From Paludibacteraceae bacterium (GTDB lineage: Bacteria > Bacteroidota > Bacteroidia > Bacteroidales > Paludibacteraceae): 64,000 nucleotides of DNA. The stretch's first letter is position 1. The number at the start of each line of letters is the position of its first letter. Made by a program: the position numbers and the translations under genes. Positions 35,809 through 40,147 of this stretch are shown here, piece by piece. The stretch lies in contig JAEEMG010000019.1 in the NCBI GenBank assembly GCA_016283095.1, positions 1 to 64,000 on the forward strand. The letters run 5' to 3'. The notes under the pieces were generated by a model. It worked only from the letters and a program-made list of their open reading frames with translations, searched no databases and was not told the origin of the DNA.

Positions 35809-36372
35809 TTAGTGTTCCAACCAGTTCTTTATCATCTGCTTACCATCTGGTGTAAGCACTGATTCTGGATGGAACTGAATGCCTCTGATATCAAATGTCT
35901 TGTGACGTAACGCCATCACCTGTCCTTCTCCAGACACTGCTGTGATTTCCAAATCTGCTGGGAATCCTTTAGCGTCGACTACCCATGAATGGTATCTTCC
36001 GACTGGAATTCGTCTGTTCAAACCGGCAAACACATAATCATCTACAGTGATGTCGATATCTGTCTGTACTCCATGGAACACATCTGACAGATTCGTCAAT
36101 GTGCCTCCAAAACTTTCTCCGATAGCCTGATGTCCAAGACATACTCCAAGAATTGGCTTTTTTCCCTTGTACTCGGCAATCACATCCATAAGCAGTCCGG
36201 CTTCTGTAGGGATACCTGGACCTGGGCTTAAAATTATTTTATCAAACTGCTGCAAATCAGACAATTTGAACTGATCGTTTCTATACACTGTAACGTCTGC
36301 ACCCAATGCTTTGACCAAGTGCGAGAGGTTGTATGTGAATGAATCGTAGTTGTCTATAATTACTATTTTCAT
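35809..36372 (-). CDS. trpG: Anthranilate synthase glutamine amidotransferase subunit
   Basis: TrpG (187 aa) supplies ammonia from Gln to TrpE. Class I amidotransferase triad: Cys78 in ILGVCLGHQAIG, His168 and Glu170 in IQFHPES. Not fused to trpD. 23 nt after trpE. Confidence 0.96.
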   Translation of the reverse strand: MKIVIIDNYDSFTYNLSHLVKALGADVTVYRNDQFKLSDLQQFDKIILSPGPGIPTEAGLLMDVIAEYKGKKPILGVCLGHQAIGESFGGTLTNLSDVFHGVQTDIDITVDDYVFAGLNRRIPVGRYHSWVVDAKGFPADLEITAVSGEGQVMALRHKTFDIRGIQFHPESVLTPDGKQMIKNWLEH

Positions 36373-36395: not shown

Positions 36396-37790
36396 TTAAA
36401 TTTCCTCAGCAAGTGTGATGGCACGACGCAATGCGCCCAACTTATTGTTCACCTCCTGCAACTCATACTCCTCGTTGCTCTTGGCAACAATTCCACCACC
36501 AGCTTGGAACCATAATTCACCGCCACGGCTCACAAATGTACGGATTGTGATCGCCTGGTTCAACGACTTGTTCAAGCCGATAAATCCAATACATCCACCA
36601 TACGCTCCACGATTATGTGGCTCGTACTCTGAAATCAACTGCATCGCTCTCACCTTTGGTGCTCCAGAAAGTGTTCCTGCTGGGAATGTGTCGATAAACG
36701 CCTTGATTGGATCAGCATCCTTGTCGAGTGTACCACGAACACGGCTAACCAAGTGGATAACATGGCTGTAATACTGCATCTCCTTGTACTTCTCCACATA
36801 CACGTCGTGACAATTGCGTGACAAATCGTTACGGGCAAGATCCACAAGCATCACATGCTCTGCGTTCTCCTTTGGATCATCATGAAGATACTGGGCATTC
36901 TTGGCATCCTGTGCAGCGTCGCCTGTACGTTTTGTTGTGCCCGCAATCGGATCGATATAAGCCTGATCACCATCTATACGGCAGTGTGTCTCTGGACTTG
37001 ATCCGAAGATTCTGAAACCGCCGAAATCGAAATAGAATAGGTATGGCGACGGGTTGATGCTTCTCAACGCACGATACAACTTGAAATCGTCTCCCTCATA
37101 CTTCTGGATGAAACGTCTCGACAACACAATCTGGAAGACATCACCTCGCATACAGTGAGCGATACCCTTACGGATATTTGCCTTATGCTCCTCGTCTGTC
37201 AACGGACTTGAAGTCTCACCGATCGCATGGAACTCATAATTGTTGATCTTACCTCCACGGATCGCTGTGCGGACTCTCTCGATTCCACTTTTCTCTCCAT
37301 CCTGAACCATCTCCACAATCATCATCTCATTATTGAAATCGTTGAAGACGATGATGTAACGATACAATATATACAGCATATCTGGAGCGTCGGCCAACGG
37401 ATTAACCTCATCCTTAACCTTGATATCCTCAAAATAGCGGACAGCGTTGAATGAAGTATATCCATATAATCCACAGAAGTTGGAACATTCACCGTCTACA
37501 GAAATCTCTTTCAAAAAATCATTGATGGCATGATCAGAACGATAAGAATGGTCTACAACATGCTCACGTCTGCTTCCATCTGGGAATCTCATATATGATT
37601 TTCCATGGCTGATAGACACGCTTGCAATAGGCTCCAATCCGATGAATGAACGGTTGTTCTCACCGCCATGGTAATCAGAACTTTCCATCAATGCACTTTG
37701 TGAATATAGGTCGCGGACACGAAGATATGTCTCGACGGGAGTGTGCATATCTCCCAAAAGAGTCACGACATTTGTTTTGAACTTATACAT
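36396..37790 (-). CDS. trpE: Anthranilate synthase component I
   Basis: TrpE (464 aa) converts chorismate to anthranilate, the committed step. Chorismate-binding motifs GSSPETHCRIDGD, PIAGTTKRTGD, LVDLARNDLSRN and FPAGTLSGAPKVRAMQLI are intact. The N-terminal LMESSDYHGGENNRSF contains the LLES-like element that binds inhibitory Trp, so feedback inhibition is likely. 4 nt after trpA. Confidence 0.96.
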   Translation of the reverse strand: MYKFKTNVVTLLGDMHTPVETYLRVRDLYSQSALMESSDYHGGENNRSFIGLEPIASVSISHGKSYMRFPDGSRREHVVDHSYRSDHAINDFLKEISVDGECSNFCGLYGYTSFNAVRYFEDIKVKDEVNPLADAPDMLYILYRYIIVFNDFNNEMMIVEMVQDGEKSGIERVRTAIRGGKINNYEFHAIGETSSPLTDEEHKANIRKGIAHCMRGDVFQIVLSRRFIQKYEGDDFKLYRALRSINPSPYLFYFDFGGFRIFGSSPETHCRIDGDQAYIDPIAGTTKRTGDAAQDAKNAQYLHDDPKENAEHVMLVDLARNDLSRNCHDVYVEKYKEMQYYSHVIHLVSRVRGTLDKDADPIKAFIDTFPAGTLSGAPKVRAMQLISEYEPHNRGAYGGCIGFIGLNKSLNQAITIRTFVSRGGELWFQAGGGIVAKSNEEYELQEVNNKLGALRRAITLAEEI

Positions 37791-37794
37791 AACC

Positions 37795-38568
37795 TCAACC
37801 TTTAATTTTCTTGATTAATGAACTTACCGCTTCTTCGATTGTCGGATTCGCATCAAGTTCTTTGATAAACTGGCTTCCCACGATAGCTCCACAAGAATTG
37901 TCGGCAGCAGCACGGAATGTCTCATGGTTTGAGACTCCGAATCCCACCAAAGTAGGGTTCTTCAAATTCATTGCCTTGATTCTCTTGAAATAATCCTGTT
38001 TGCTCTGCTCAAAACTGCTCTGTGCACCTGTTGTGCTTGCCGACGAAACCATGTATACGAAGCCTGAACTTGCCTCGTCGATCTTACGGATTCTCTCCTC
38101 GCTTGTCTCTGGAGTGATCAAGTGTATAAAATCAAGTCCATATTTCTCCACAATCGGACGATACTCAGCGTTATACTCGTCAAGAGGAAGGTCTGGAAGG
38201 ATAATTCCGTCGATACCGATCTCTTTTGCCTTCTTGCAGAAATCATCAAAACCAAACTGCATAGCACAATTGATATAACCCATAAGAATCAACGGAATAT
38301 CTGTCACCTTACGGATATCCTTGATCTGCTCAAAAAGCAATTTCTGTGAGATACCATTCTTCAAAGCGATAGAGTTACTACGCTGAATAACAGGACCGTC
38401 AGCCAACGGATCTGAGAATGGAATTCCAATTTCAATCATGTCCACACCAGCATCAGACAATGCCTTGATGATTCGTGGAGCCGAGTCTACTGTGGGATAA
38501 CCAGATGAAAAGTAGACCGAAAGTATATCTTTGCCTTTTTCTTTGAAAAGACGTGAAATCCTAGTCAT
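37795..38568 (-). CDS. trpA: Tryptophan synthase alpha subunit
   Basis: TrpA splits indole-3-glycerol phosphate and passes indole to TrpB. The start is the ATG at 38568 (MTRISRLFKEKGKDI), giving 257 aa; 17 further upstream codons in frame lie in the AT-rich spacer and are not conserved. Catalytic Glu46 and Asp57 are in EIGIPFSDPLADG. Position directly after trpB is unusual for Bacteroidota, where trpA often closes the operon. Confidence 0.95.
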   Translation of the reverse strand: MTRISRLFKEKGKDILSVYFSSGYPTVDSAPRIIKALSDAGVDMIEIGIPFSDPLADGPVIQRSNSIALKNGISQKLLFEQIKDIRKVTDIPLILMGYINCAMQFGFDDFCKKAKEIGIDGIILPDLPLDEYNAEYRPIVEKYGLDFIHLITPETSEERIRKIDEASSGFVYMVSSASTTGAQSSFEQSKQDYFKRIKAMNLKNPTLVGFGVSNHETFRAAADNSCGAIVGSQFIKELDANPTIEEAVSSLIKKIKG

Positions 38569-38579
38569 AATCGTATAGA

Positions 38580-38652
38580 AGTTAATGATTAATGGTGAAT
38601 AGTCAATAGTCATCTTCAATTCTTAACTATTAACTATTAATTCTTAATTAAA
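38580..38652. repeat. AT-rich imperfect inverted repeat between trpB and trpA
   Basis: Short TTAA/ACTATTA-type words recur (TTAATGATTAATGG, then TTAACTATTAACTATTAATT). The two halves are imperfect inverted copies. It could form a weak hairpin in the mRNA; no T run follows, so not a terminator. Confidence 0.5.
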
Positions 38653-39840
38653 TCACTTAAGATGCTTTAAATAAGTCTGCATATCCTTGTCGCCACGTCC
38701 AGAGACTGTCAAAACAACGACATCGTCTTTCTTGAACTTATCCTTCATTCTTGGAAGAAGAGCCAAAGCGTGAGCACTCTCAAGAGCAGGGATGATACCT
38801 TCAAGTTTAGTAAGTTCGAACGCAGCATCAAGAGCCTCCTGGTCAGTGATTGGAAGAACCTTGCTTCTGCCATCCTTGAACATTTGGCAATGCATAGGTC
38901 CGACGCCAGGATAATCGAGTCCGGCAGAGATTGAATATGGCTCAATGATCTGTCCATCCTCAGTCTGCATCACATACATTTTAGAACCGTGAAGGATTCC
39001 GACTGTACCGATATTCAAAGACGCTGCAGTCTCACCAGTCTCTACACCAAGACCGCCAGCCTCAGCAAGAACGATGTTTACTCTCTCGTCTCCTTTATAA
39101 TGATAGATAGTACCCGCAGCATTTGATCCACCACCGATGCAAGCCATCAGATAGTCTGGATAATCCCTACCCTCTTTCTCCTTGATCTGCCACTTAATCT
39201 CTTCACTGATAACACTCTGCATTCTTGCCACCATCTCAGGATATGGGTGAGGTCCCATCGTACTACCGATGATGTAGAAAGTGTCACGTGGATTGCAACA
39301 CCAGTCACGGATAGCCTCATTGCAGGCATCCTTTAGAGTCTTGTTACCACTCTGTACAGGCACCACAGTCGCACCCAACATCTTCATTCTCTCCACATTA
39401 GGTTTCTGACGCTCAACATCAGTAGCACCCATATACACGACGCATGGAAGATTCATAAGGGCACAAGCTGTTGCAGTAGCCACACCATGCTGGCCGGCTC
39501 CCGTCTCACAAATAATTCGCGTCTTTCCCATTTTCTTAGCAAGAAGGATTTGGCCAAGAGAGTTGTTAATTTTATGAGCTCCAGTGTGATTCAAATCCTC
39601 ACGTTTAAGGTAAATCCTGCAACCGTATTTTTCGCTCAAACGGCTTGCATAGTAAAGCGGAGAAGGACGACCAACATAATCTTTTAGAAGAGCATGAAAC
39701 TCTTCCTTGAAATCCTTGCTGTTCATGATCGCCTCATACTGCTCCTGAAGGTCATAAACCACCTTGTGAAGAATCTCCGGAATATAGCTTCCTCCGAATT
39801 CTCCGTAGTAACCATCTTTGCTTACTTCGTAATTTTTCAT
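38653..39840 (-). CDS. trpB: Tryptophan synthase beta subunit
   Basis: TrpB (395 aa) condenses indole with L-Ser using PLP. The PLP Lys is Lys90 in [21 protein letters not shown] binds the PLP phosphate and [13 protein letters not shown] is the Ser/indole loop. TrpB1 type, normal length. First structural gene behind the trp leader. Confidence 0.97.
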
Positions 39841-39871: not shown

Positions 39872-39907
39872 AAAAAAAGGCTGTCTCACATTAAGTGAAA
39901 CAGCCTT
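39872..39907 (-). terminator. trp attenuator terminator (3:4 hairpin)
   Basis: Minus strand: arm AAGGCTGTTTCAC (39907-39895), loop TTAAT, arm GTGAGACAGCCTT (39889-39877), a 13-bp stem with one G-U, and a T7 tract. It stands 31 nt before the trpB ATG and downstream of the only promoter, so it must be bypassed for expression. Confidence 0.9.
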
Positions 39908-40066
39908 ATGCTATCATTCAGTTACCTCTATACATAAACACAAAAAAATCATTATCAGATTCGCGCCTTGAAGAATCCGACAATGAACCGCAAAATCATT
40001 TGCGTAAGCTTTTTGAATAGGCGACTGCTTCACTTCTTAATTTCTCTGAAGAAAGCCACCATCGCC
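39893..40066 (-). promoter_or_regulatory. trp attenuator alternative stems (1:2 and 2:3)
   Basis: Segment 1 (40066-40048) overlaps the Trp codons and pairs with segment 2 (40036-40020): CTTC with GAAG, GCTT with AAGC, GGCGA with TCGCC, 13 bp in all. Segment 2 can instead pair 40035-40025 with 39903-39893 of the terminator 5' arm (AAGTGAAGCAG with CTGTTTCACTT, 11 bp, one G-U), which blocks the terminator. The 121-nt gap between segments 2 and 3 holds a CGCAAA/TTTGCG hairpin around the leader stop codon. Pairing was done by eye. Confidence 0.72.
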
Positions 40067-40094
40067 AATACCTATGTATTATCTGGTAATTCAT
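39996..40094 (-). CDS. trpL: trp leader peptide (32 aa, three Trp codons)
   Basis: ATG at 40094-40092, TGA at 39998-39996. Residues 9-13 are YWRWW; the Trp codons are 40067-40065, 40061-40059 and 40058-40056. The peptide starts MNYQIIHR and ends SKSLRK. It is too short for usual gene calling. Stalling at the Trp codons when charged tRNA-Trp is scarce would cover segment 1 and free segment 2 to form the antiterminator. The start is about 16-20 nt after the predicted transcription start. Confidence 0.82.
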   Translation of the reverse strand: MNYQIIHRYWRWWLSSEKLRSEAVAYSKSLRK

Positions 40095-40116
40095 AAATAT
40101 CAATGGTTTTCACATG

Positions 40117-40147
40117 CAAAATTAGATAAGTTTATTAAAATCACAAA
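40117..40147 (-). promoter_or_regulatory. trp operon promoter, TTTG-N19-TAATTTTG
   Basis: Minus strand TTTG (40147-40144), 19 bp, TAATTTTG (40124-40117): a full consensus match. Transcription would start near 40110, giving a leader of about 270 nt before trpB. The 40148-40300 interval shows nothing else. Confidence 0.8.

Follow-up and report, generated by a model that had tools for sequence, protein, structure and literature searches.

A genus-specific variant of the Bacteroid-trp leader as the probable attenuator of trpBAEG in a Paludibacteraceae genome

Layout of the trp locus and its leader

The window, a stretch of 64,000 nt from a Paludibacteraceae bacterium, carries an operon on the minus strand whose order, by profile matches, is trpB-trpA-trpE-trpG, preceded by a promoter and a short Trp-containing reading frame. 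The genes trpD and trpC adjoin on the same strand (27497-25641), and trpF lies at 23459-22860. Upstream of trpD-trpC, no second Trp leader of the trpBAEG type was seen. The features of the promoter, leader peptide and operon are as follows.

40144-40147, minus strand: TTTG (-33) element of a Bacteroidetes-type promoter, from the sequence, 19 nt from the -7 box
40117-40124, minus strand: TAATTTTG (-7) promoter element, from the sequence, fitting TAnnTTTG and kept in same-genus relatives
39996-40094, minus strand: leader peptide ORF of 32 codons, MNYQIIHRYWRWWLSSEKLRSEAVAYSKSLRK and stop, from the sequence and from Trp-rich ORFs in relatives
40056-40067, minus strand: Trp codons 10, 12 and 13 (TGG CGA TGG TGG), invariant in the genus
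38653-39840, minus strand: trpB (TIGR00263, 586.6 bits)
37795-38619, minus strand: trpA, a later ATG probably being the true start (TIGR00262, 224.4 bits)
36396-37790, minus strand: trpE (best match TIGR00564, 401 bits, under the model cut-off of 517.7)
35809-36372, minus strand: trpG (TIGR00566, 188 bits)

A preliminary description of this DNA had proposed a complete ribosome-mediated trp attenuator here, and its minus-strand promoter (TTTG, 19 nt, then the -7 box) and its 32-codon frame with YWRWW at residues 9-13 (ORF 40094-39996) are both present as claimed. A sigma-70 promoter scan is ill-suited to this phylum. The leader ATG lies 23 nt past the -7 box, the Trp codons occupy 40067-40065, 40061-40059 and 40058-40056, and the distance from the first of them to the stop codon is 72 nt. 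Upstream of the trp region (43616-63958, minus strand), the window is taken up by one open frame of about 6780 amino acids with repeated surface-protein-like domains and a gliding/sorting-like C-terminal end.

Alternative hairpins in the leader

The leader RNA can form several hairpins, three of which share strands.

40020-40066, minus strand: 1:2 hairpin (protector), fold -15.3 kcal/mol, 15 pairs invariant in 6 sequences
40023-40035, minus strand: segment 2, the antiterminator strand AAGTGAAGCAGTC, 13 bp with segment 3, -17.7 kcal/mol
39893-39905, minus strand: segment 3, the terminator 5' arm plus two loop bases, pairing with segment 2 or 4
39877-39907, minus strand: 3:4 intrinsic terminator, 13 bp with loop TTAAT, -20.6 kcal/mol
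39872-39878, minus strand: terminator T7 tract, from the sequence, its first two T within the stem
39989-40004, minus strand: small hairpin of 6 bp over the leader stop codon, with one compensatory change in the relative L036
39950-39985, minus strand: genus-specific gap hairpin, 13 bp with a 10-nt loop, -14.1 kcal/mol, kept in 6 sequences

The 1:2 stem on the Trp codons and the 2:3 stem that sets the same segment 2 against the terminator arm had been described with 13 and 11 bp; both exist, and both are longer than that. Segment 1 (40066-40048), which lies over the Trp codons, pairs with 40036-40020 in 15 pairs arranged in two blocks (6 + 9) with one bulge, while the 2:3 stem consists of 13 contiguous pairs, two of them G-U, between AAGUGAAGCAGUC and GGCUGUUUCACUU. 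The 13-bp terminator with its T7 tract stands as described, the T run ending at 39872 and being followed after 31 nt by trpB at 39840. Segments 2 and 3 are indeed far apart, although we measure a gap of 117 nt (about 115-117 nt) instead of 121, and this gap holds the extra hairpins. The larger of these is followed by a second T7 (39948-39942), and this unit (39942-39985), conserved in the genus, looks like an additional weak terminator or a site of pausing. An origin of the gap hairpin as a repeat or mobile element was ruled out, as the genome has no second copy.

Folding of the whole leader, a check suggested beforehand, gave z = -4.70, with 0 of 200 shuffles as good. Of 200 shuffles, none equalled the 2:3 pairing and 3 equalled the 1:2 pairing. 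The antiterminator excludes both the terminator and the Trp-codon hairpin, and the mutual exclusion that classical attenuation needs is borne out by the 13-bp 2:3 stem and the fold energies. If the RNA stops at segment 3, the fold energy is -63.1 kcal/mol for the 2:3 state vs -59.8 kcal/mol for the 1:2 state; the two are within 3.3 kcal/mol of each other, as close as a switch needs. When segment 4 is present in the fold, the terminator forms.

Conservation within the genus and across Bacteroidales

The closest named relative is Candidatus Scybalocola fimicaballi, labelled Paludibacteraceae in the tree, with a trpB 97% identical to that of the window. In an alignment of 6 sequences, comprising the window and five same-genus relatives, every stem is kept and the Trp codons are unchanged. 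The terminator pairs are kept in 6/6 sequences with one-sided changes, and the stop-codon hairpin has one two-sided compensatory pair change (C-G to U-A, in L036). Stems 1:2 and 2:3 are identical throughout the genus, which leaves almost no covariation there, and such invariance means that covariation cannot confirm either stem at this level. The covarying stems that had been suggested as a check do occur across the order, for a differently wired antiterminator (see below).

Beyond the genus, we retrieved 80 named trpB loci and analysed 78 upstream regions, including that of the window. A short ORF with W..W is found in 64 of the 78 regions, where shuffled sequence gives 2.95 on average, and a short ORF containing WW in 58 (0.8 expected from shuffles), so the Trp codons are not a product of chance. 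This answers the call of the preliminary description for conserved Trp codons upstream of relatives' trpB. Typical leader peptides of relatives read MKTMFVNTYWWWHPLQLRQS or MTLNSFNFWWWQSSELHNCE, with an intrinsic terminator 20-70 nt downstream in most cases; relatives that lose the Trp codons yet keep the hairpin are not the rule. Trp leaders of the classical, ribosome-read type precede trpB in most sampled Bacteroidales, which implies that usable transcription-translation coupling exists in Bacteroidota. One trpB clade of Prevotella and Hallella (L083, L097, L086, L079, L108) has upstream regions without a Trp-rich leader ORF, indicating loss or relocation of the attenuator in this clade.

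Relation to the known family RF01692 and other systems

Whether such leaders had been described in this phylum was left as a question by the preliminary description, and they have: Rfam family RF01692 (Bacteroid-trp, ‘Bacteroidete tryptophan peptide leader RNA’) stems from Weinberg et al. 2010 (PMC2864571), so a trp leader attenuator is already known in the phylum. A later paper compares the Bacteroid-trp RNA to the Escherichia coli attenuator (PMC6414381). In Flavobacterium psychrophilum, leader-peptide attenuation before amino-acid biosynthesis operons has been reported and a Bacteroid-Trp RNA noted upstream of trp (PMC9723704, PMC6414381); these leaders are flavobacterial, yet follow the same Bacteroidota leader-peptide principle.

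In a sample of 149 genomes from the order, RF01692 exceeds the cut-off (gathering score 49 bits) in 7, rising to 27/149 at E up to 0.1. Among the species with a match above threshold immediately before trpB are Bacteroides clarus and Coprobacter secundus (matches adjoining trpB: L054, L056, L058, L061, L067, L073, L074). The window leader does not match RF01692 at the gathering threshold, nor at E up to 10, and a search across the window's genome gave nothing over the cut-off for this family. No Rfam family, T-box included, matches the leader at its gathering threshold. Matches at E up to 10, such as a Tetrahymena snoRNA (RF02322) over the terminator, were set aside as chance, as was one to BTnc231 (E 2.6).

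The window leader shares with RF01692 its phylum, its place directly upstream of trpB, a Trp-rich leader peptide, a hairpin over the Trp codons and a terminator downstream. It differs in having a 32-codon peptide, compared with about 15-20 codons, and in the 72 nt from its first Trp codon to its stop, compared with mostly 27-39 nt in relatives. The gap between segments 2 and 3 has a median of 37 nt in those relatives, and the partner of the window's segment 2 is the terminator 5' arm instead of the loop and 3' arm. The window leader therefore represents a known class of attenuator in a form specific to the genus, which the Rfam model misses.

In E. coli trpL, the Trp codons lie in segment 1, and the terminator 5' arm competes with segment 1 for segment 2. 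By comparison from general knowledge, the window leader has the same attenuation logic. Unlike trpL, it has its stop codon downstream of segment 2 (by about 25 nt), a long structured gap before segment 3, a Bacteroidetes-type promoter and an operon, trpBAEG, without D, C and F.

Two proposed wirings of the antiterminator

For each leader we compared two possible partners in the terminator, the 5' arm plus loop and the loop plus 3' arm, using native pairs and pairs swapped between species. In 42 typical leaders, native pairing with the loop and 3' arm averages -10.72 kcal/mol vs -9.27 +/- 0.34 kcal/mol for swapped pairs (0/2000 permutations), while the 5' arm plus loop shows a weaker excess (4/2000 permutations); relatedness is not accounted for in the permutations, and as the classes were set after this first set, a second set serves as the independent check. 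In that second set, 29 further unused leaders, the loop plus 3' arm result was replicated (1/5000 permutations), and the 5' arm plus loop showed no excess over swapped pairs (1877/5000). The terminator 5' arm alone was also tried as the antiterminator partner, and rejected for most relatives in favour of the loop plus 3' arm.

In nearly every case the loop and 3' arm pair with the sequence surrounding the leader's stop codon (AGTCGTAAG, ATTGTGAGTA), a strand that covaries with the terminator loop and upper 3' arm in most Bacteroidales trp leaders (L032-L131). The searchable parts of the papers hold no description of this pairing, and the searchable text on the F. psychrophilum attenuators (PMC9723704, PMC6414381) no comparison of antiterminator wiring.

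The window genus is different, its antiterminator partner being the 5' arm plus loop. In the window itself this pairing is better than chance (0/200), whereas the loop plus 3' arm lacks a better-than-chance leader partner (p = 0.52). The 5' arm plus loop is also the partner in the majority of the eight leaders from a Muribaculaceae-like group (5/2000 permutations). In the trpB tree, the window genus is sister, with strong support, to L037, which has the loop/3'-arm form. We find it reasonably probable that Bacteroid-trp antiterminators come in two wirings and that the window genus has been rewired with function kept. In most Bacteroidales, the stop-codon strand (GTCGTAAG or GTCGTGAG) would capture the loop and upper 3' arm, and a ribosome at the stop codon itself could mask the antiterminator. 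In the window genus and the distant Muribaculaceae-like group, it is the 5' arm that segment 2 would capture, following the E. coli pattern. The comparison suggests that the antiterminator has been rewired in evolution, and that the Rfam model misses the rewired form.

Proposed mechanism and alternative explanations

The conserved Trp-codon run and the exclusive stems kept in the genus support the reading proposed in the preliminary description, and judged on its sequence the window leader is very likely a ribosome-mediated attenuator of trpBAEG and, in position and logic, an orthologue of the Bacteroid-trp leaders found in other Bacteroidales. In this gut bacterium, it very probably lets transcription through only when tryptophan is short. 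We infer that the leader is translated, that ribosomes stall on it and that readthrough changes accordingly. With ample Trp-tRNA, the ribosome would complete the leader peptide and the Trp-codon strand would re-pair with segment 2 (1:2), leaving segment 3 free for the 3:4 terminator. With low Trp-tRNA, the ribosome would stall at the WRWW codons and cover segment 1, the freed segment 2 would pair with segment 3, and RNA polymerase would read through into trpBAEG. A ribosome at the stop codon would leave segment 2 uncovered, so the decision would rest on 1:2 re-forming behind the ribosome. As the ribosome-free equilibrium at segment 3 slightly favours 2:3, termination without leader translation would depend on folding kinetics. 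Our guess is that the extra gap hairpins shorten the effective distance between segments 2 and 3, pause the polymerase, or both.

We consider it highly improbable that the Trp-rich ORF arose as a chance frame, with the hairpin acting as a constitutive terminator or as a processing site for the upstream region: a terminator-like hairpin is certainly present, but the promoter sits between the upstream gene and the hairpin, Trp-codon ORFs in relatives are about 20 times as frequent as chance would give, and the complementarity of segment 2 to the terminator arm goes beyond that of shuffles. We give just as little credence to sensing of tryptophan by a TRAP-like protein, TrpR or a T-box, with the leader ORF only assisting or adding translation coupling. 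Although the long structured gap has room for a binding site, profile searches of the 99.9% complete genome found neither TrpR (PF01371) nor TRAP (PF02081), both recovered in control genomes, and the Rfam search above gave no T-box.

A further alternative accepts attenuation and places the antiterminator elsewhere than in the 13-bp 2:3 stem, in the gap hairpins or the stop-codon region. Most relatives, including the sister L037, do use the stop-codon strand as partner of the loop and 3' arm, and the gap hairpins are conserved with one covarying pair, yet the window's own loop and 3' arm find a partner only at chance level, whereas its 5' arm plus loop does far better. We regard this arrangement as unlikely, if somewhat less so than the other two, and retain the 2:3 stem as the antiterminator of the attenuator.

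The same genome contains a second probable attenuator shortly before hisG (G000:C98, locus L133, reverse complement of 1197-1340). It encodes a His-rich peptide, MRFRRLHKHHHEHCIENDASELCVCSAKH, followed by GGAGGCTTAC..GTAGGTCTCC and T6, and CAAGTGAGC can pair with GCTTACTTG of the terminator. We count this His-rich leader and its terminator in favour of the attenuation reading for trp.
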